Origin: Defluviitaleaceae bacterium
GTDB taxonomy: Bacteria > Bacillota > Clostridia > Lachnospirales > WRAA01
Length of the DNA: 59,166 nucleotides
Direction of reading: 5' to 3'
NCBI GenBank assembly: GCA_009780015.1
Contig: WRAW01000005.1
Span: 1 to 59,166 of the forward strand
Below are positions 15,578-22,972 of this stretch, piece after piece (the stretch's first letter is position 1; each line of letters starts with the position of its first letter). Below the pieces are notes generated by a model. The model ran no database searches. It had not been told where the DNA came from and saw nothing but the letters and a program-made list of their open reading frames with translations. The position numbers were made by a program, and so were the translations under genes.

Positions 15578-15796
15578 TTAACCTCCCCCTACCGGAGGAA
15601 ATAATGACACTATGTCGCTTTCGGAAAGCGCGGCGTCAGGATTTGCGTTCCTGCCGTTTATCAGATAAATTGCTACGGCCGAAGGCAATATCCCCAAGGA
15701 CTCCATTACGGCGAGGCCGTTAATGCCCTCATGCCAATCCACTCTGACTGCCTTGCCGCGGTTTTCCCTAAGCGTAGCGAACAATCGGACTTCCAT
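15578..15796 (-). CDS. MoaD/ThiS-like sulfur carrier protein
   Basis: 72 residues of ubiquitin-like fold: MEVRLFATLRENRGK, a central AVMESLGILPSAVAIYLING, and the C-terminal SLFPPVGGG. The terminal diglycine is the site adenylated by an E1-like enzyme and thiocarboxylated to donate sulfur to the pterin dithiolene. The gene is last in the cofactor locus, directly behind the oxidoreductase gene. The ThiF-like E1 at 18107 is its likely partner. A second free glycine at the very end is a small deviation from classic ..GG ends. Confidence 0.88.
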   Translation of the reverse strand: MEVRLFATLRENRGKAVRVDWHEGINGLAVMESLGILPSAVAIYLINGRNANPDAALSESDIVSLFPPVGGG

Positions 15797-15823: not shown

Positions 15824-17617
15824 TTACAACCCAAGACGCTCAAGCGTCACCGCGGTTGGAAACGCGTTTTCCCAGCCTCTTGCCTTGTAGTATTCCGGCA
15901 ACATTTCGGGAAGCCTGCTCAGGCTGCCCTTTGCCGGCCCGCCGGTGATCGGCTCTTCCAGCAGACGTTTCGGAAGGCTGTCGTCTTCGGGCTTCATGCC
16001 TGCCTTTTGGTTGAAGAGGCGCTCGAGGTTGTAGATTCTTTCGCCGGCTTCAAGCACGCCGTTCACGTCATAGCTTGTTCCGGTTGCGGCGTTAAGCATC
16101 TCCGCGTAAACATCCGCACTCAAAGCGAATGATGTGAAGAGGCACATTCCCGACGAATCGATAACTGCTGTGAGATTTTGGAAAATAATAGACCAAGTAT
16201 GCTTGTTCTCGATGCTTGTCATTTCGAGCTTTTCGGGTATGCCCGCAATTTCCGGCGCGATGGTGTAGCCGCGTACGTGGCAACCGCCTCTGTTGCTGGT
16301 CGCGTAGGTGACGCCGATGCCCTGGATTGCGCGCGCGTCATAAGCAGGAAGGTCAAGCTTCTTGCTGCTCATGGAGAATTCGGGTACTCCGTAGTGTTCA
16401 CACAAACGGTATGAACCCTGAGCCATAAGCTTGCCGAGCTTTGTCTCACCCTTGCCCATTCTTTCAGTCCACTTCACGATAGCGTCGCCGCTTCCCCAAA
16501 CCAGGGGTACGCCTTCGCAATCCTCGTCCTTAATGTATCCGCGCTGATAAAGCTCCATCGCCGCGGCAATTGTACAGCCTGCGGATATTGTATCGATACC
16601 GGTCTCGTTGCAAACCCAGTTTGCGCGGTTTATGGCGTCCAGATCGCTTACGCCGCAGGACGCTCCATAGCTCCAAAGGGTCTCGTATTCCGCTCCGGCA
16701 CGATCCTTGCCGTCAAGCTTGACGACACGGGCGCAGCCTATCGGACATCTGTGGCAGTAGCCGTTCTTTACAAGCACCGTGTCCGCCATTGTTTCGCCCG
16801 AGGTCGCTTCCGCCCCGTCGAATTCTGATTCTTGCCAATTCCTTGTCGGATATGCTCCCACGGAATTGAGAATGTTGACAAGAACAGCCGTTCCAAATTT
16901 CGGAAGGCCCTGACCCGCTACGCCGTTTTCCTTTATCAGCTTGTTAGCCTTGGAAACAACTTCCTTGAGCGCGGCAGCGTCAGCCGGCTCGACGGAAGTA
17001 CGCGACGACGCGCAGCAAATCGCCTTAACGTTCTTGGAACCAAGCACCGCTCCTACGCCGGAGCGTCCCGCGGCGCGCTCGGCGTCGTTCATAACAGCCG
17101 CGAGAAGCGAAAGCTGCTCTCCGCCGGGGCCGATGTTTAGAACCGAACAGCCCTCGTGGCGGCCCTTCAACACTTCCTCAACATGTTCCGTTTCCTGACC
17201 CCACAGATCCGACGCATCAAGAATCTCGTACTTGTCGTCAACAATATTGATGTAGCAAGGCTTGTCGGCCTTTCCTTCCAGGATCATCAGGTCGAATCCG
17301 GCGTACTTGAGCTTTGCGCCCCATACGCCGCCCGAGTTGGAGCAGGCAATCATGTTGTTAAGCGGCGACTTTGTGATGACCATGTAGCGGCATCCCGTCG
17401 GTACGGCTACTCCTGTAAGCGGGCCGGTGGCTATTATGACCTTGTTTTCGGGGGAAAGCGGGTCAACCTTTGGATCAACCTCGTCGAACAGTATCTTCGA
17501 TCCGAGTCCGCGGCCGCCGACAAACTTCTTGGCAAGGTTGAGATCAAGGTCTTCAACCTTGCAGCTTCTCTCCGTCAGATTCACTCTCAGTATTTTTCCA
17601 TTGTACGATGTTGCCAT
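15824..17617 (-). CDS. aor: Aldehyde:ferredoxin oxidoreductase (tungsten type)
   Basis: 597 residues. Four [4Fe-4S] ligands are visible: C288, C291 and C295 in CHRCPIGC, and C492 in DSSGMCLF, closely matching the Pyrococcus enzyme. The pterin-binding motifs RAAGRSGVGAVLGSKN and YDARAIQGIGVTYATSNRGG are present. The family oxidises aldehydes to acids with ferredoxin as acceptor, using a bis-tungstopterin; the reverse reaction is also known. Cytoplasmic. The surrounding moeA, mogA and moaD-type genes fit cofactor supply. The exact aldehyde cannot be read from sequence; aldehydes from amino-acid fermentation are plausible. GAGGAGG precedes the ATG. Confidence 0.94.
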   Translation of the reverse strand: MATSYNGKILRVNLTERSCKVEDLDLNLAKKFVGGRGLGSKILFDEVDPKVDPLSPENKVIIATGPLTGVAVPTGCRYMVITKSPLNNMIACSNSGGVWGAKLKYAGFDLMILEGKADKPCYINIVDDKYEILDASDLWGQETEHVEEVLKGRHEGCSVLNIGPGGEQLSLLAAVMNDAERAAGRSGVGAVLGSKNVKAICCASSRTSVEPADAAALKEVVSKANKLIKENGVAGQGLPKFGTAVLVNILNSVGAYPTRNWQESEFDGAEATSGETMADTVLVKNGYCHRCPIGCARVVKLDGKDRAGAEYETLWSYGASCGVSDLDAINRANWVCNETGIDTISAGCTIAAAMELYQRGYIKDEDCEGVPLVWGSGDAIVKWTERMGKGETKLGKLMAQGSYRLCEHYGVPEFSMSSKKLDLPAYDARAIQGIGVTYATSNRGGCHVRGYTIAPEIAGIPEKLEMTSIENKHTWSIIFQNLTAVIDSSGMCLFTSFALSADVYAEMLNAATGTSYDVNGVLEAGERIYNLERLFNQKAGMKPEDDSLPKRLLEEPITGGPAKGSLSRLPEMLPEYYKARGWENAFPTAVTLERLGL

Positions 17618-17650
17618 TTCTCATCCTCCTCTTGTCTACTACAGCAATGT

Positions 17651-17765
17651 ATAGTGAAATGACTTTAATTCAAGACAAAATATTTTTTAAGCTTTAGCGT
17701 GTCCGCGCGGCTTTAAGCGCGGATCTGAAAAATATTTTGTCTCATTTTCTAAGTCATTTCACTAT
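17651..17765. repeat. 115-bp triple-nested palindromic element
   Basis: Three nested inverted repeats share one centre: outer ATAGTGAAATGACTT / AAGTCATTTCACTAT (17651-17665, 17751-17765), middle AGACAAAATATTTTT / AAAAATATTTTGTCT (17673-17687, 17728-17742) and inner TCCGCGC / GCGCGGA (17702-17708, 17717-17723). It encodes nothing and lies just upstream of the oxidoreductase gene. MITE-like, or a strong hairpin separating the cofactor genes from the enzyme gene. The gap 17618-17837 holds nothing else I recognise. Confidence 0.85.
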
Positions 17766-17837
17766 ATTATATATGCTACAAATCCTTCTCGTATCAAAGC
17801 TGCTGATTATGTACATTCCGAGAAGGAAAATTGTCGG

Positions 17838-18101
17838 TTATCCGCCCAAGCTCAAAAAACGAAGCCTGAACGCCGTCAGAAACTTTTCCGCGGCGTCACG
17901 GTCTCCCGTTACGGTAATTTTGTGACGCGGTATGTCAAACGCCTCGAAAGCACTCACTTCACACGGATCAACCCAAATTTCTATATCCCCCAGCGCATAT
18001 GCTCCGCGTTCGTTTCGTATGGCGTCAATTTCATTAAAGTACCGCTCGATATCGCGAAAAGGAACCGCGCTGATTATCTGTAAGTTTTTATATGTAAACA
18101 T
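17838..18101 (-). CDS. Unknown 87-residue protein of the tungsten-cofactor locus
   Basis: Started at the ATG at 18101, six bases after the ThiF-like stop; a TTG at 18110 would overlap that gene. Sequence features: a short strand-rich start (MFTYKNLQIISAVPFRDIER), ERGAYALGDIEIWVDPCEVS with one cysteine, and a C-terminal helix ending FLTAFRLRFLSLGG. The diglycine end recalls ubiquitin-like sulfur carriers, but the rest does not look like MoaD. There is no clear ribosome site, so it is probably translated by coupling. Not recognised; its position between the E1-like enzyme and the oxidoreductase suggests a role in cofactor or enzyme maturation. Confidence 0.7.
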   Translation of the reverse strand: MFTYKNLQIISAVPFRDIERYFNEIDAIRNERGAYALGDIEIWVDPCEVSAFEAFDIPRHKITVTGDRDAAEKFLTAFRLRFLSLGG

Positions 18102-18106
18102 GATGC

Positions 18107-18793
18107 TCAAAAGACGTCGAACTCGTAGTTCATAAGGTCTACTCTTGCGATAGAGCCCTGAAGATTAGGGCTTTTACCGAGCAGGAGCTTCACCGTCTCG
18201 GCACATTGCATACAGGCCGCAAACCCCGCCACAAAAGGCATGTTGCCAAGAGTCTTGTCTACGTTGCCGTCGGTTGTGTTTCCATAAAGCGGCTCCAAGC
18301 CGGAGCTTTCCGGCATTATCACCGAAACTTGGGCATACCAGCCGCCAATGGCTCCGTGAACAAAGGGGATTCCAAGGCTATCGCAAGCCTTGGCCGCAAC
18401 CCGTCGGCTTCCGATATTATCGAGCGCGTCGACCACAACGTCATGCCCGGCAAGCATTTCCTCAGCGTTGGACGCGTCCAAACGAGCTTGGAGCAGCCTG
18501 AGCCGCGCGCTCGAGTCCACGGCGAGCAGTCGCGCTTCTGCCTCAACCACCTTCGGCTTGCCGACACCGTCCTCCGTGGAAAAAAGCTGGCGGTTCAAAT
18601 TTGTTTCGTCAAACACGTCCGGGTCGATCAGGGTAAGCCGGATCACCCCTACGCGCAGCAGCATTTCGGCAATGTGCCCGCCAAGTCCGCCGCACCCGAT
18701 CACGCATACTTTCTTGCTCGCCAGTATCTCGTTATCAGCCGGGCTGACACTTGTTCCGTTGCGTTCATACCTCTTTTTCCGCTCGTTTGCCAC
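18107..18793 (-). CDS. ThiF/MoeB-family adenylyltransferase (E1-like)
   Basis: 228 residues from the GTG at 18793 (MANERKKRYERN), with TGGAGTGA upstream. The ATP motif VCVIGCGGLGGHIAEMLLR, the conserved DPDVFDETNLNRQ and VDALDN are all present. MQCAETVK carries a cysteine at the usual adenylation-linked position. The classical CxxC zinc pairs of MoeB are not visible. It would adenylate the C-terminal glycine of a MoaD/ThiS-like protein; the locus has one at 15578. Its start follows the MOSC stop by a few bases. Confidence 0.88.
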   Translation of the reverse strand: MANERKKRYERNGTSVSPADNEILASKKVCVIGCGGLGGHIAEMLLRVGVIRLTLIDPDVFDETNLNRQLFSTEDGVGKPKVVEAEARLLAVDSSARLRLLQARLDASNAEEMLAGHDVVVDALDNIGSRRVAAKACDSLGIPFVHGAIGGWYAQVSVIMPESSGLEPLYGNTTDGNVDKTLGNMPFVAGFAACMQCAETVKLLLGKSPNLQGSIARVDLMNYEFDVF

Positions 18794-18798
18794 CGCGA

Positions 18799-19245
18799 TC
18801 ACTCCAGTACGCTGATTTTGTCTCCGCGCTTCACCGTACCACCGCGCAAAACCACCGCGAAAATGCCTTCCAGCGGCATTATACATTTGCCGACCTTTTG
18901 CTGTATCGCACAGCCATGATGACATTCCTTGCCTATTTTAGAGACCTCAAGCATCGTTTCACCTATGGTCATCCTTGTACCGACAGGCATTTTATGCAAT
19001 ACCAGACCCTTGGTGGTTATATTCTCGGCAAAATCGCCAAAATTAAGCTCACTGGAAGTTTGCGCGCGCATCTTGTCGATGCTCTCGCTGGCCAGCAAGC
19101 TAATCTGTTTAATACCTGGCTCCGCGTGCGCGTCCCCGGAAATTCCGTGATTTTCGACCAGCAAAGCCGACTCTGCAGGGGTTTTGACGCCCCCTTTCTC
19201 ACCGCTCAAGTTAATTGAGCAGACTTCTCCCGTATATGATGTCAT
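18799..19245 (-). CDS. MOSC-domain protein
   Basis: 148 residues from the ATG at 19245 (AAAGGTGG upstream). GEVCSINLSGEKGGVKTPAE, VENHGISGDAHA, QISLLASES and FGDFAENITTKGLVLHKMPV follow the MOSC pattern, and GKECHHGCAIQQKVGKCIMP holds the conserved cysteine. MOSC proteins carry sulfur or bind pterin cofactor. Small stand-alone MOSC proteins are common beside moaB/mogA genes in Clostridia, as here. Confidence 0.9.
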   Translation of the reverse strand: MTSYTGEVCSINLSGEKGGVKTPAESALLVENHGISGDAHAEPGIKQISLLASESIDKMRAQTSSELNFGDFAENITTKGLVLHKMPVGTRMTIGETMLEVSKIGKECHHGCAIQQKVGKCIMPLEGIFAVVLRGGTVKRGDKISVLE

Positions 19246-19282
19246 GAGCCTGCCACCTTTCAAAGTATATGCGCCGGTTGTC

Positions 19283-19789
19283 TCATTTACGGGCGCAATC
19301 GGACGCGTTTTTCGTCAAGATGTCCATTCCATGTATTATGGAATCCAATACGTATTCCAGTGACTCAGCCACGGCCTTAGGACTGCCGGGAAGGTTTAGA
19401 ATCACGCTTGCGCCGCGTATTCCGCATACTGCGCGTGAGAGCATGGCGCGGTTCGTAATACTCATGCTATGCTGGCGGATCGCTTCGCACACCCCCGGAG
19501 CTTCGCGTTCTATTACGGCCTTTGTCGCCTCCGGCGTAACATCCCGGGGCGAGAACCCGGTTCCGCCCGTCGTCAGAACAAGCTCGATCTTCAATTCATC
19601 GGCGCAGTACACAAGCCGATCCTTGATAATCTCGAACTCGTCGGGTATGATTTCATAAGCGGCGACGCTGAGTCCGGCATTTTTAAGTATCTCTCGGATC
19701 ACTTCCCCGCTCCTATCTTGGCGCTCTCCGGCCGCTCCCGAGTCGCTTATGGTGATGACGCCGCATCTATAGATATACAATTTCACCAA
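19283..19789 (-). CDS. mogA: MogA/MoaB-family molybdopterin adenylyltransferase
   Basis: 168 residues. GVITISDSGAAGERQDRSG, VLTTGGTGFSPRDVTPEA and ASVILNLPGSPKAVAESL are the family motifs for MPT binding and adenylation. The product, MPT-AMP, is the substrate of MoeA. The GTG at 19789 overlaps the end of the MoeA fusion gene by 23 bp, indicating coupling. GAAGGA lies upstream. Confidence 0.93.
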   Translation of the reverse strand: MVKLYIYRCGVITISDSGAAGERQDRSGEVIREILKNAGLSVAAYEIIPDEFEIIKDRLVYCADELKIELVLTTGGTGFSPRDVTPEATKAVIEREAPGVCEAIRQHSMSITNRAMLSRAVCGIRGASVILNLPGSPKAVAESLEYVLDSIIHGMDILTKNASDCARK

Positions 19790-21662
19790 TTCCTTCGAGG
19801 GTATATCCGCCCATATTCAGAACCTGTTCACGGAATCCGCCTGATTTCAGTATCTGGACAAACTGCCGTACCCTTGGTTCGTCCAGAAATTCCTGTGGAA
19901 CAAGGAAGTCATAACTTTCATCGGCTACCGGCACGAAACCAAGTCCCATAGCCTTAGCCGCCGACAATATCCCCAGCCCGGCGTCGACATGGCCGGATTT
20001 TACAGCCACAGCTACGGACAAGTGGGTATTGAACTCCTTTTCGTAGCCCATAATACCCGACGGCTCAATTCCCTGCCGCGACAAGCAATAATCCAGCAAG
20101 AGCCGCGTTCCCGCGCCGCGCTGCCTGTTGGCAAACCTAATGCCGCGCGCAGGGTCTGCGATATCGGCAACACCGGCAATACCTAACGGATTATCCGGCC
20201 GCACAATAAACCCCTGGACTCGGCCTACGCCCTTTATTAACGCCATCTTTCGATCGCTAAGATATTTATGCACAAACGGGATGTTGTACACTCCGGTGTC
20301 TTCGTCAAGAAGGTGTACCGGGGCTATATGGCACTCGCCGCGTTTCATAGCCGTAATTCCGCCCATGCTTCCGACGTGAGCCGATGATATGTTCATGCTG
20401 TCGGCAAGTATGTCAATAATAAGGTCGTGACTTCCGACGACGGCCAATGTATTTTCAATTCTCGACAACGGAGCCATTAAGTCAACTTGCACAACCTCCC
20501 CGGAGTCAAAGCCTTCAACAAGCCTTGGAATCGTCACCTTTCCGTCCGCACGCACTAGGCTCATGACAGCCGAAGCGCCCCTCTCGAGCGGCGTGGCGAC
20601 ATACTTTCCATGAACATACCCGACGGCGACCCTTACAACCTCCTCATTTTTAGCGGAGGAAACAAGTCTGCGCGAGAGCGTTGCGGAAACCGTAGGAGCC
20701 TGAACAGGCATGAACCCAAGCATTGAAGTCATAAGCGGCGACACAAATTTCTCAAACATCAGGTACGCCGAAACGGGATAGCCCGGTACTCCAAGCACAG
20801 GCTTGCCGCCAATTTCCGCCAGAATTGTGGGCTTCCCAGGTTTCACGGCAATGCCGTGGGTATGCACAACGCCGAGCTCACTCAAGGCGGCAAGGGTATG
20901 ATCCTTTGTACCGGCGGAAGTACCGGCATTTATCACAACTATATCGTTTTCGGATACAGCAGATTTAATCGTTCGTAATAATTCGTCGAAATTATCCCTC
21001 ACAATGGGATATCTTTGCGCAACCCCCCCGTACTCGTCGGTCAGCGCGGCGAATACGTGCGAGTTTGACTCCATCAGCCGCCCGGCTTCAAGCCGCCGTA
21101 CGGAGTCGACAAGTTCGGCGCCTGTTGGTATAATGGCAACCCTTGGCTTTCGGAACACCCGGGCCTTGTCATAACCTCCGGCGACAAGCGCTCCTACGTC
21201 AACCGGTCGTATTCTGCGTCTTGAGGGCAGTATCATTTCCCCCGCGACGATGCTTTCTCCGACAAGGCGCACATGCTGCCAAGGATATGCCGATTGTATA
21301 ATTTGCACAGTGTCATCATCAACGATAATGACATCCTCAATCATTATTACTGTGTCATATCCTCCGGCAATTTCCCCACCGGTGTTGACATACTCGAAAT
21401 CCCGGTGAAGCTTCAGCGCCACCGGAGTTAGTTCCGACGCGTCAAAAGTTTTCGCGGAATTAGTCATAATGCCGTCCATGGCTGCGGCGTTGTAAAATGG
21501 ATCGCAAACCTTGGCAAAATGCGGTTCATATGTAACCCGCCCAAGAGCGGCGGTAATATCTACATCCTCCGCCTTACCGCTTATATGCAGCCTGCACAGA
21601 AAATCTTCCAGCGCTTTGTTGGGGTCGTTGTTTTCAATATATACGCTTCGATAATTTTTCAC
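19767..21662 (-). CDS. MoeA fused to a periplasmic-binding-protein-like domain
   Basis: 631 residues. Residues about 1-410 are MoeA (YNAAAMDGIM, VIPTGAELV-type strand at VAIIPTGAELVDS, VINAGTSAGTKDHT, VLGVPGYPVSAY) and residues about 415-631 are a substrate-binding-protein-like domain (LAVVGSHDLIIDILADSM, RFANRQRGAGTRLLLDYCL, ESYDFLVPQEF). This architecture is known in prokaryotes and is thought to sense or present the oxyanion during metal insertion. There is no signal peptide, so it acts in the cytoplasm. The GTG start overlaps the stop of the neighbouring moeA (GTGA). Confidence 0.92.
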   Translation of the reverse strand: MKNYRSVYIENNDPNKALEDFLCRLHISGKAEDVDITAALGRVTYEPHFAKVCDPFYNAAAMDGIMTNSAKTFDASELTPVALKLHRDFEYVNTGGEIAGGYDTVIMIEDVIIVDDDTVQIIQSAYPWQHVRLVGESIVAGEMILPSRRRIRPVDVGALVAGGYDKARVFRKPRVAIIPTGAELVDSVRRLEAGRLMESNSHVFAALTDEYGGVAQRYPIVRDNFDELLRTIKSAVSENDIVVINAGTSAGTKDHTLAALSELGVVHTHGIAVKPGKPTILAEIGGKPVLGVPGYPVSAYLMFEKFVSPLMTSMLGFMPVQAPTVSATLSRRLVSSAKNEEVVRVAVGYVHGKYVATPLERGASAVMSLVRADGKVTIPRLVEGFDSGEVVQVDLMAPLSRIENTLAVVGSHDLIIDILADSMNISSAHVGSMGGITAMKRGECHIAPVHLLDEDTGVYNIPFVHKYLSDRKMALIKGVGRVQGFIVRPDNPLGIAGVADIADPARGIRFANRQRGAGTRLLLDYCLSRQGIEPSGIMGYEKEFNTHLSVAVAVKSGHVDAGLGILSAAKAMGLGFVPVADESYDFLVPQEFLDEPRVRQFVQILKSGGFREQVLNMGGYTLEGIGEIVYL

Positions 21663-22894
21663 AAGCGCACCACGTCTACCATCTCTCCCGCGTCAAGCCC
21701 TTCGCTCTTTTCGTCAATCATAATCAGGCCGTCGGAATCTGTCAAATGGCTTATCAGTCCTGATTTTCCGTATAGCGGCTCAGCAAAAAACCTGCTGTCG
21801 TCATATCGCAGCGACACGGCTTGGAATGTCAGCTTCCCAGGAGCGGAGTGCACATTTGCGGTAAGCGTCGCCACCAAGTGCGGCTCGCCGCCTATGCCAG
21901 CGGAAGAACCGCGAAGTATGTCCAGGTAATATTGCACAATGGCCTTGTAAACTATGTACGCCGACACACATTGACCGGGAAGACCAAATACGGGCTTTCC
22001 GCCAACACTTGCCAGTATCGTTGGTTTGCCGGGTTTTACGGCCAGCCCATGGGCGAATACGCTGCCATCTTCTATCGACTCTATCGCTTGAAATGTATAA
22101 TCCTTGTCGCCGACGGACGTACCGCCGCTGATTACCACAAAGTCAGCCTTCACCAGCGCGTCTTGTATAGCCGACTTTATCTCGTCAAAGCGATCCATCA
22201 CAAGCCGCTTGCTTACGACACGACAGTCATATGCCTCAAGTTCCGCGCCAATCATGTGGGTATTCACATCACGGATACAGCCGGGCATCAGTGCGTCACC
22301 TACGCCGACAAGCTCGTCGCCCGTTGAAACAACCGCGCAGCTTATGGGCTTATAAACCAGAAGCCGCGAAATTCCAGCGGCGATCATTATGCCAATATGA
22401 ATCGGCGTGATCCTTGTGCCGCGCGTTATCAACAAATCTCCAGGTCTGCAATCGTCACCTTTGTAAATTATGTTGATATTAGGCGCGACCGCGTGATTTA
22501 CGGCAACCGTGTCGGAAGACAGTTCCTCGCAGTATTCGACCATTACAACAGCGTCGGACGAAGCCGGAATCTGAGCGCCGGTCGGTACGTATACCGCCTC
22601 ACCGCTTTTTATGTCGACAGATGTCGCCTCGCCCATTCGCGCCGCCGACAATATTTTCAGAAAGCATGGAATACTCTCCGTAGCGCCGAATGTGTCTCTG
22701 CTGATTATGGCGTAGCCGTCTACGCAGGACCGGTCAAAAGCGGGAGCTTCTTCCTTCGCGAATATATCTTCTGAGGCAAACCGCCCACAAGAAGCCTCGA
22801 CAGGGATAGTCTCACATTCAGGAGCAACATGCGCAAATTTTTCCCGCATTTCGCTCCAAACACTGTGCAATGTTTTCATAGTAAGAAATCCCAT
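21659..22894 (-). CDS. moeA: Molybdopterin molybdotransferase MoeA
   Basis: 411 residues from the ATG at 22894, with AGAAAGGA upstream; an extended frame to 22969 is not supported. FDRSCVDGYAII, VPTGAQIPASSDAVVMVEY, VVISGGTSVGDKDYT and GKPVFGLPGQCVSAY are MoeA motifs. It inserts molybdate or tungstate into adenylated MPT. Two MoeA-type proteins side by side are common where both Mo and W, or two enzyme classes, are served. It heads the cofactor genes. Confidence 0.93.
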   Translation of the reverse strand: MGFLTMKTLHSVWSEMREKFAHVAPECETIPVEASCGRFASEDIFAKEEAPAFDRSCVDGYAIISRDTFGATESIPCFLKILSAARMGEATSVDIKSGEAVYVPTGAQIPASSDAVVMVEYCEELSSDTVAVNHAVAPNINIIYKGDDCRPGDLLITRGTRITPIHIGIMIAAGISRLLVYKPISCAVVSTGDELVGVGDALMPGCIRDVNTHMIGAELEAYDCRVVSKRLVMDRFDEIKSAIQDALVKADFVVISGGTSVGDKDYTFQAIESIEDGSVFAHGLAVKPGKPTILASVGGKPVFGLPGQCVSAYIVYKAIVQYYLDILRGSSAGIGGEPHLVATLTANVHSAPGKLTFQAVSLRYDDSRFFAEPLYGKSGLISHLTDSDGLIMIDEKSEGLDAGEMVDVVRL

Positions 22895-22972
22895 GAAGCG
22901 CATATCCTTTCTGTGTACACAATCAGCAATTTTATTATATTTGTAATGGGCAAAACTGTCAAGACCCATTTT

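Follow-up and report, generated by a model that had tools for sequence, protein, structure and literature searches.

A small protein ending in two glycines, encoded in a tungsten cofactor locus of a Defluviitaleaceae bacterium, is almost certainly related to the DUF1952 domain, as judged from profile and structure-model comparisons, and the association of its family with the genes of tungsten aldehyde ferredoxin oxidoreductase (AOR) and MoaD is well supported. The 87-residue protein, here called SP, lies in a stretch of 59,166 nucleotides (contig WRAW01000005.1) that was analysed as a whole, hereafter the window. By analogy, we tentatively read it as a DUF1952 relative that may serve the tungsten-pterin pathway with MoaD, as a second E1-dependent Gly-Gly carrier lacking the beta-grasp fold. 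Supply of the AOR-type tungsten cofactor is only partly known, and structure 1V8C, released in 2004, has held DUF1952, a domain of unknown function, ever since. New here is the link from this domain to a family of stand-alone proteins from Bacillota, Calditrichales and Asgard archaea, to AOR and MoaD genes, and to a strict C-terminal diglycine. If the last glycine is activated, a carrier of non-ubiquitin fold would occur in the same loci as MoaD.

The features of the window locus are the following.
15578..15796, minus strand: MoaD, separate from SP, ending FPPVGGG (ThiS-family PF02597, E 8.4e-11).
15824..17617, minus strand: AOR (AFOR_C PF01314, E 2e-140; AFOR_N PF02730, E 1.1e-75).
17650..17766, no strand assigned: palindromic stretch in the SP-AOR gap, outside the proposed function.
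17838..18101, minus strand: SP, 87 residues, predicted DUF1952-like fold, C-terminal Gly-Gly.
18107..18925, minus strand: ThiF/MoeB-like E1 gene (PF00899, E 1.3e-46; alignment to MoeB 1JW9).
18799..19263, minus strand: MOSC-domain protein (PF03473, E 6.5e-12).
19283..19789, minus strand: MogA/MoaB-like protein of the same locus, from a reading of the sequence and not a family scan.
19767..22969, minus strand: two tandem MoeA-like genes (19767-21662 and 21659-22969), from a reading of the sequences.

SP runs from an ATG at 18101 to a stop at 17838 and ends in FRLRFLSLGG; a TTG at 18110, as an alternative start, would add three residues. The earlier note had placed an 87-residue gene with a Gly-Gly end in a tungsten cofactor locus, coupled to a ThiF-like E1, and all of this is confirmed. 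The stop codon of the ThiF-like gene lies five bases ahead of the ATG of SP. The congener G001 keeps a 60% identical protein between ThiF and AOR, so SP is not a chance open reading frame. The MOSC gene lies upstream of the ThiF-like gene, whose true start is probably inside the open reading frame 18107-18925, given the overlap with MOSC. AOR and then the ordinary MoaD follow downstream of SP, as the note had said, but a gap of 220 bases that bears the palindrome precedes AOR, against 33 bases in G001; we therefore group SP in a MOSC-ThiF-SP unit, with which AOR may or may not share a transcript. The first MoeA-like gene (19767-21662) has a long C-terminal extension, read as periplasmic-binding-protein-like, and a tandem MoeA-like pair was also found beside AOR in other loci.

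SP has relatives elsewhere: 27 Bacillota genomes carry one, as do four genomes from an Asgard phylum and one from Calditrichales. The window SP had no Pfam match at E<=10 and reached no NCBIfam model at its cut-off. When 392 genomes of the order were searched with the single sequence, six had SP, and the profile of those six members matched 18 of 398 genomes sampled from the phylum (E<=0.001). A broader profile, A7, built without the last nine residues, matched 24 of the same 398 genomes at E<=0.01, of which 22 were kept; these and five order members outside that sample make up the 27 Bacillota carriers. Two of them from one genus, G395 and G442, carry a divergent SP that was first detected at E 0.003. 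Six genomes with best E values of 0.009-0.08 and a second weak match in G537 were dropped from the scan with the six-member profile, as were G760, G579 and a second G478 match from the A7 scan, all three inside long frames of other proteins.

A tail-motif scan of named genomes gave 26 loci, more than half of them in Desulfosporosinus and others in Clostridium, a Calditrichales genome and a Prometheoarchaeum (Asgard) record. A single-sequence scan of the named genomes with the window SP returned no relative, the window lineage being divergent, and plasmid records gave no match. Among 227 genomes of the phylum of Prometheoarchaeum, the tail-less profile had seven matches. Four were kept (G803, G897, G894 and G893); contamination is disfavoured, because the same two genes come after SP in G803 and in G897. 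The three rejected matches (G852, G849 and G855) covered only the N-terminal part of the profile, in proteins of 183-189 residues without a Gly-Gly end, which we take to be archaeal tRNA methylases. Kinship with the archaeal small protein family TIGR04140 (chp_AF_0576) is not established by sequence comparison: 3 of 23 SP members matched weakly (best E 0.0021), and the window SP did so over residues 54-80, before the tail, with 11.8 bits against a curated cut-off of 45. A TIGR04140 search of 101 Bacillota genomes gave no match, and none in the control genomes either.

To relate the family to known structures, a profile of 26 members (A5) was compared with 177,635 PDB sequences. The single match below E 0.01 was 1V8C (E 9.9e-5), covering residues 96-152 of 168, which correspond to Pfam DUF1952 (PF09189). 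In the database sequence, this Thermus thermophilus 'MoaD related protein' consists of a MoaD with FPPVAGGG followed by DUF1952 ending in SRGGG. Comparison of the SP profile with the 1V8C domain by hhalign gave 96% over 59 columns. Structure models of the window SP (pLDDT 76.6) and of a Desulfosporosinus member (85.4) agreed with this match: in VIA they aligned to 1V8C with Z 10.8 (rmsd 2.8; next row 8.1) and Z 11.1 (rmsd 2.2; next row 8.0), respectively, each over 82 residues, and plain Foldseek also ranked 1V8C first (E 1.9e-3). Both models aligned to residues 83 or 84 to 165 of 1V8C, its C-terminal, non-MoaD half, and the modelled order of elements is strand-helix-strand-strand-strand-helix.

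The window SP did not reach the PF09189 gathering score (22 bits), 6 of 28 members of the A6 set matched PF09189 at E<=1, one of these being the Thermus piece itself, and a search of the window's own genome gave two sub-threshold matches, neither at SP. PF09189 matched six genomes, including the control Thermus composti, and one of the six exceeded the cut-off. Because of the profile match and the model alignment to 1V8C, SP is read as a stand-alone relative of the DUF1952 domain that falls below the Pfam threshold. Likeness to the C-terminal domain of 1V8C thus lies in a predicted common fold, a significant profile match, a C-terminal Gly-Gly and a tie to MoaD; the difference is that the domain is fused behind MoaD in Thermus and is a gene of its own in the window.

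A beta-grasp fold, which the earlier note had suggested looking for, was not borne out: among the 50 matches listed by VIA for each model, the only beta-grasp protein recognised was 1V8C, matched via its other half, and SP showed no profile similarity to ThiS or MoaD. The note's remark that SP does not resemble MoaD held, with a probability of 0.3% for the SP profile against the window MoaD and no ThiS match. SP shares with the beta-grasp carriers MoaD, ThiS and WorX a small size, a C-terminal Gly-Gly and genes beside E1 and AOR, but its models have another fold and a genuine MoaD is present in the same loci. WorX, another small protein, takes its name from the operons of tungsten oxidoreductases and is called ThiS-like in the accessible part of its source (PMC13328260), so it corresponds to MoaD and not to SP. 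No literature on DUF1952 was found by that name, and the portions available of the literature on 1V8C, WorX, AOR/MoaD and the tungsten maturase held no description of SP.

The last two residues are Gly-Gly in 49 of 49 aligned rows (47 distinct sequences), and Arg79 (94%), Phe82 (91%) and Leu83 (89%) are also conserved. Many of these rows were found by profiles or a pattern that included the tail, so the tail-less profile is the fair test of the ending. All five members new to that profile (G602, G782, G897, G894 and G893) ended in Gly-Gly. The rejected rows do not, and G852, G849 and G855, if counted as members, would break the universal ending. In the two models, residues 81-87 have low confidence (block mean pLDDT 59 and 56), as a flexible tail would give; a conserved Gly-Gly end could equally be a docking tail.

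AOR (PF01314) was present in 22 of the 23 SP carriers first known and in 31 of the 57 genomes counted as lacking SP at that stage. G395 and G442 later moved to the carriers, which leaves AOR in 29 of 55 non-carriers, and the loci of G602 and G782 contain AOR, which brings the Bacillota carriers with AOR to 26 of 27; the exception, G537, has SP and no AOR match in its genome. For the phylum sample, 21 of 22 carriers against 29 of 55 gives a Fisher p of 3.8e-4, in genomes that are related and draws that are not independent. All 24 named carrier genomes counted have AOR, 13 of them Desulfosporosinus (24 of the 26 tail-motif loci, L065 and L076 being left out). Nearness to AOR is stronger evidence than these presence counts. 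Of 23 genomes, 11 have SP no more than 10 kb from AOR, where 0.59 would be expected; counted by family, the figures are 6 of 14 and an expected 0.35. Homologues thus do occur near pterin and aldehyde oxidoreductase genes, the point on which the earlier note had staked its reading: with later members included, AOR is within 10 kb in 13 of the 27 Bacillota carriers. The radical SAM protein of L008 passes TIGR04317, the tungsten cofactor oxidoreductase radical SAM maturase, with 388 against 380 bits. SP probably acts in the pathway to the tungsten or molybdenum cofactor. Its presence is not a general requirement of AOR, since 29 AOR-bearing genomes gave no SP. In 20 AOR stretches from 18 genomes without SP then known, no SP was seen, and MoaD-like genes (14/20) and ThiF (6/20) were recognised by eye; two of those genomes, G395 and G442, have SP elsewhere.

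Gene order ties SP to MoaD as well. The order AOR-MoaD-SP was found in L039, L050, L055 and L057, with a radical SAM protein between AOR and MoaD in L052; L042 has AOR-MoaD-ThiF-SP, and L051 and L143 have the same order with a radical SAM gene following AOR. L077 has MoaC-MogA-SP-radical SAM-AOR-MoaD-ThiF. In L145, SP lies beside an AraC-type gene, divergent from a large tungsten-pterin set (tupABC, two moeA, moaA, moaC, MOSC, AOR, radical SAM, MoaD, ThiF). SP is the next gene after MoaD in six loci (L039, L050, L052, L055, L057 and L144), and it adjoins ThiF in the window, L004, L038, L042, L051 and L143. A separate MoaD stands in each of the 13 AOR-linked loci long enough to show it (the window, L038, L039, L042, L050, L051, L052, L055, L057, L077, L143, L144 and L145; in L039 and L050 recognised by eye), which rules out SP as the MoaD of that pathway; L004, L005 and L053 end inside AOR and show no MoaD.

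Several of these loci have further features. In L005 (3110-3694), L053 and L145 (G036, G106 and G122), SP overlaps the preceding AraC-type regulator gene by one base, and the same AraC-type gene is divergent from the tungstate transporter genes tupABC in these three genomes. A rhodanese-like protein, recognised by eye, is encoded downstream of SP in G036.

In the alignment with MoeB 1JW9, the ThiF-like E1 of the window keeps the GxGGLG (presumably the nucleotide loop), NLNRQ, GKPKV and DALDN stretches and is without the Cys pair that MoeB has at the aligned place. In Thermococcus, according to the part of the report available, a tungsten enzyme is served by a carrier of the MoaD type whose gene shares an operon with that of its E1, and the E1 makes pyrophosphate with this carrier (PMC11323500). 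By analogy with that pair, the tail of SP (...FRLRFLSxGG) would most likely be adenylated at its last glycine, Gly87, by the ThiF/MoeB-like E1 encoded five bases upstream. Adenylated SP would then be thiolated, probably to a thiocarboxylate, and act as a second, non-beta-grasp carrier beside MoaD. That SP is adenylated and passes on sulfur, and to which acceptor, is our inference; E1-dependent carriage by SP is a real prospect, if somewhat short of even. ThiF also lies beside MoaD in AOR loci that lack SP, so MoaD may be the sole substrate of the ThiF encoded beside SP. The earlier note's interpretation is supported in part: it had left a choice between an alternative carrier, an inhibitor and a maturation factor; linkage to AOR favours a carrier or maturation factor, and nothing speaks specifically for an inhibitor.

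The main rival to the carrier is a partner that covers or positions MoaD. SP would then cap or stabilise MoaD or the MoaD-E1 complex, or order the hand-over, and its Gly-Gly tail would dock unactivated in a pocket of the E1 or the synthase; an inhibitor would be one form of this. The MoaD-SP gene order in six loci and the adjacency of ThiF in only part of the SP loci favour such a role. In Thermus thermophilus DUF1952 follows MoaD within a single polypeptide, each module having glycines at its end; fusion suits partners and carriers, and the order fits both readings alike. Docking alone, however, leaves unexplained why nothing follows Gly-Gly in any member and why the tail is the same where SP is far from MoaD genes, and we regard a non-carrier partner as rather unlikely. 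If SP is a carrier, the Thermus chain would have two activatable glycine ends. That many anaerobes, including Asgard archaea, run a tungsten-pterin pathway with a second, non-ubiquitin-like, E1-activated diglycine carrier alongside MoaD, the Thermus chain being a double carrier, is conceivable though doubtful. Related arrangements have been described, as far as the parts seen of these reports go: Thermus is one of the organisms for which Iyer and colleagues record MoaD beside AOR (PMC1779556), a resemblance to MoaD is stated for aorD and aorE of Aromatoleum (PMC6365974), and in Deinococcus a JAMM protease cuts a MoaD-MoaE fusion and frees the MoaD end (PMC8832034).

SP was not seen near AOR in 14 of the 27 Bacillota carriers, two of these on contigs below 7 kb. 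Its neighbours there, read from sequence, include a cytochrome bd subunit, uracil/xanthine-type permeases and a zinc transporter. This scatter would suit a sulfur carrier or protein modifier of general use, with the tungsten pathway as one client among several and with another role in Desulfosporosinus and other lineages. The Desulfosporosinus SP, which follows a YgbA_NO gene (Pfam on one member; the others look alike), and the SP of G537, beside a C_GCAxxG_C_C protein (Pfam) in a genome without AOR, point the same way. Such genomes nevertheless nearly always own AOR (24/24 named, 26/27 Bacillota), which a general carrier would not need, and we consider this explanation improbable. In many of L059-L062, L064-L073 and L075 (Desulfosporosinus and one Bacillota bin), a Cys-rich, YgbA_NO-like gene precedes SP at little or no distance.

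MoaE (PF02391) was found in 7 of 53 AOR or SP genomes (G602 and G782 outside this count) and, by a divergent clostridial profile, in 11 of 55, of which those in G036, G106, G472 and G482 are remnants, short or interrupted. The control Thermus composti gave matches for both MoaE and AOR. Intact MoaE was present in 6 of 27 SP carriers against 2 of 28 AOR-bearing non-carriers, G474 of the 29 being outside both searches. That SP stands in for an absent MoaE as the large subunit of molybdopterin synthase in anaerobes with AOR, a thought prompted by this rarity, is very nearly out of the question, because SP does not complement the absence of MoaE in these counts, that absence is equally common without SP, and SP is missing from most MoaE-less AOR genomes examined. 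Most AOR-bearing Bacillota examined are without MoaE by the two profiles; MoaE may have diverged beyond both in these genomes.

The palindrome at 17650-17766 spans 117 bases, with perfect arms of 16 and 15 bases and an RNA fold of -50.7 kcal/mol (z -8.2). A riboswitch in the SP-AOR gap was rejected, as Rfam gave only two miRNA-precursor matches, both below their gathering scores and one on the palindrome. The palindrome is missing from the SP-AOR gap of G001 and looks like a small inserted element.
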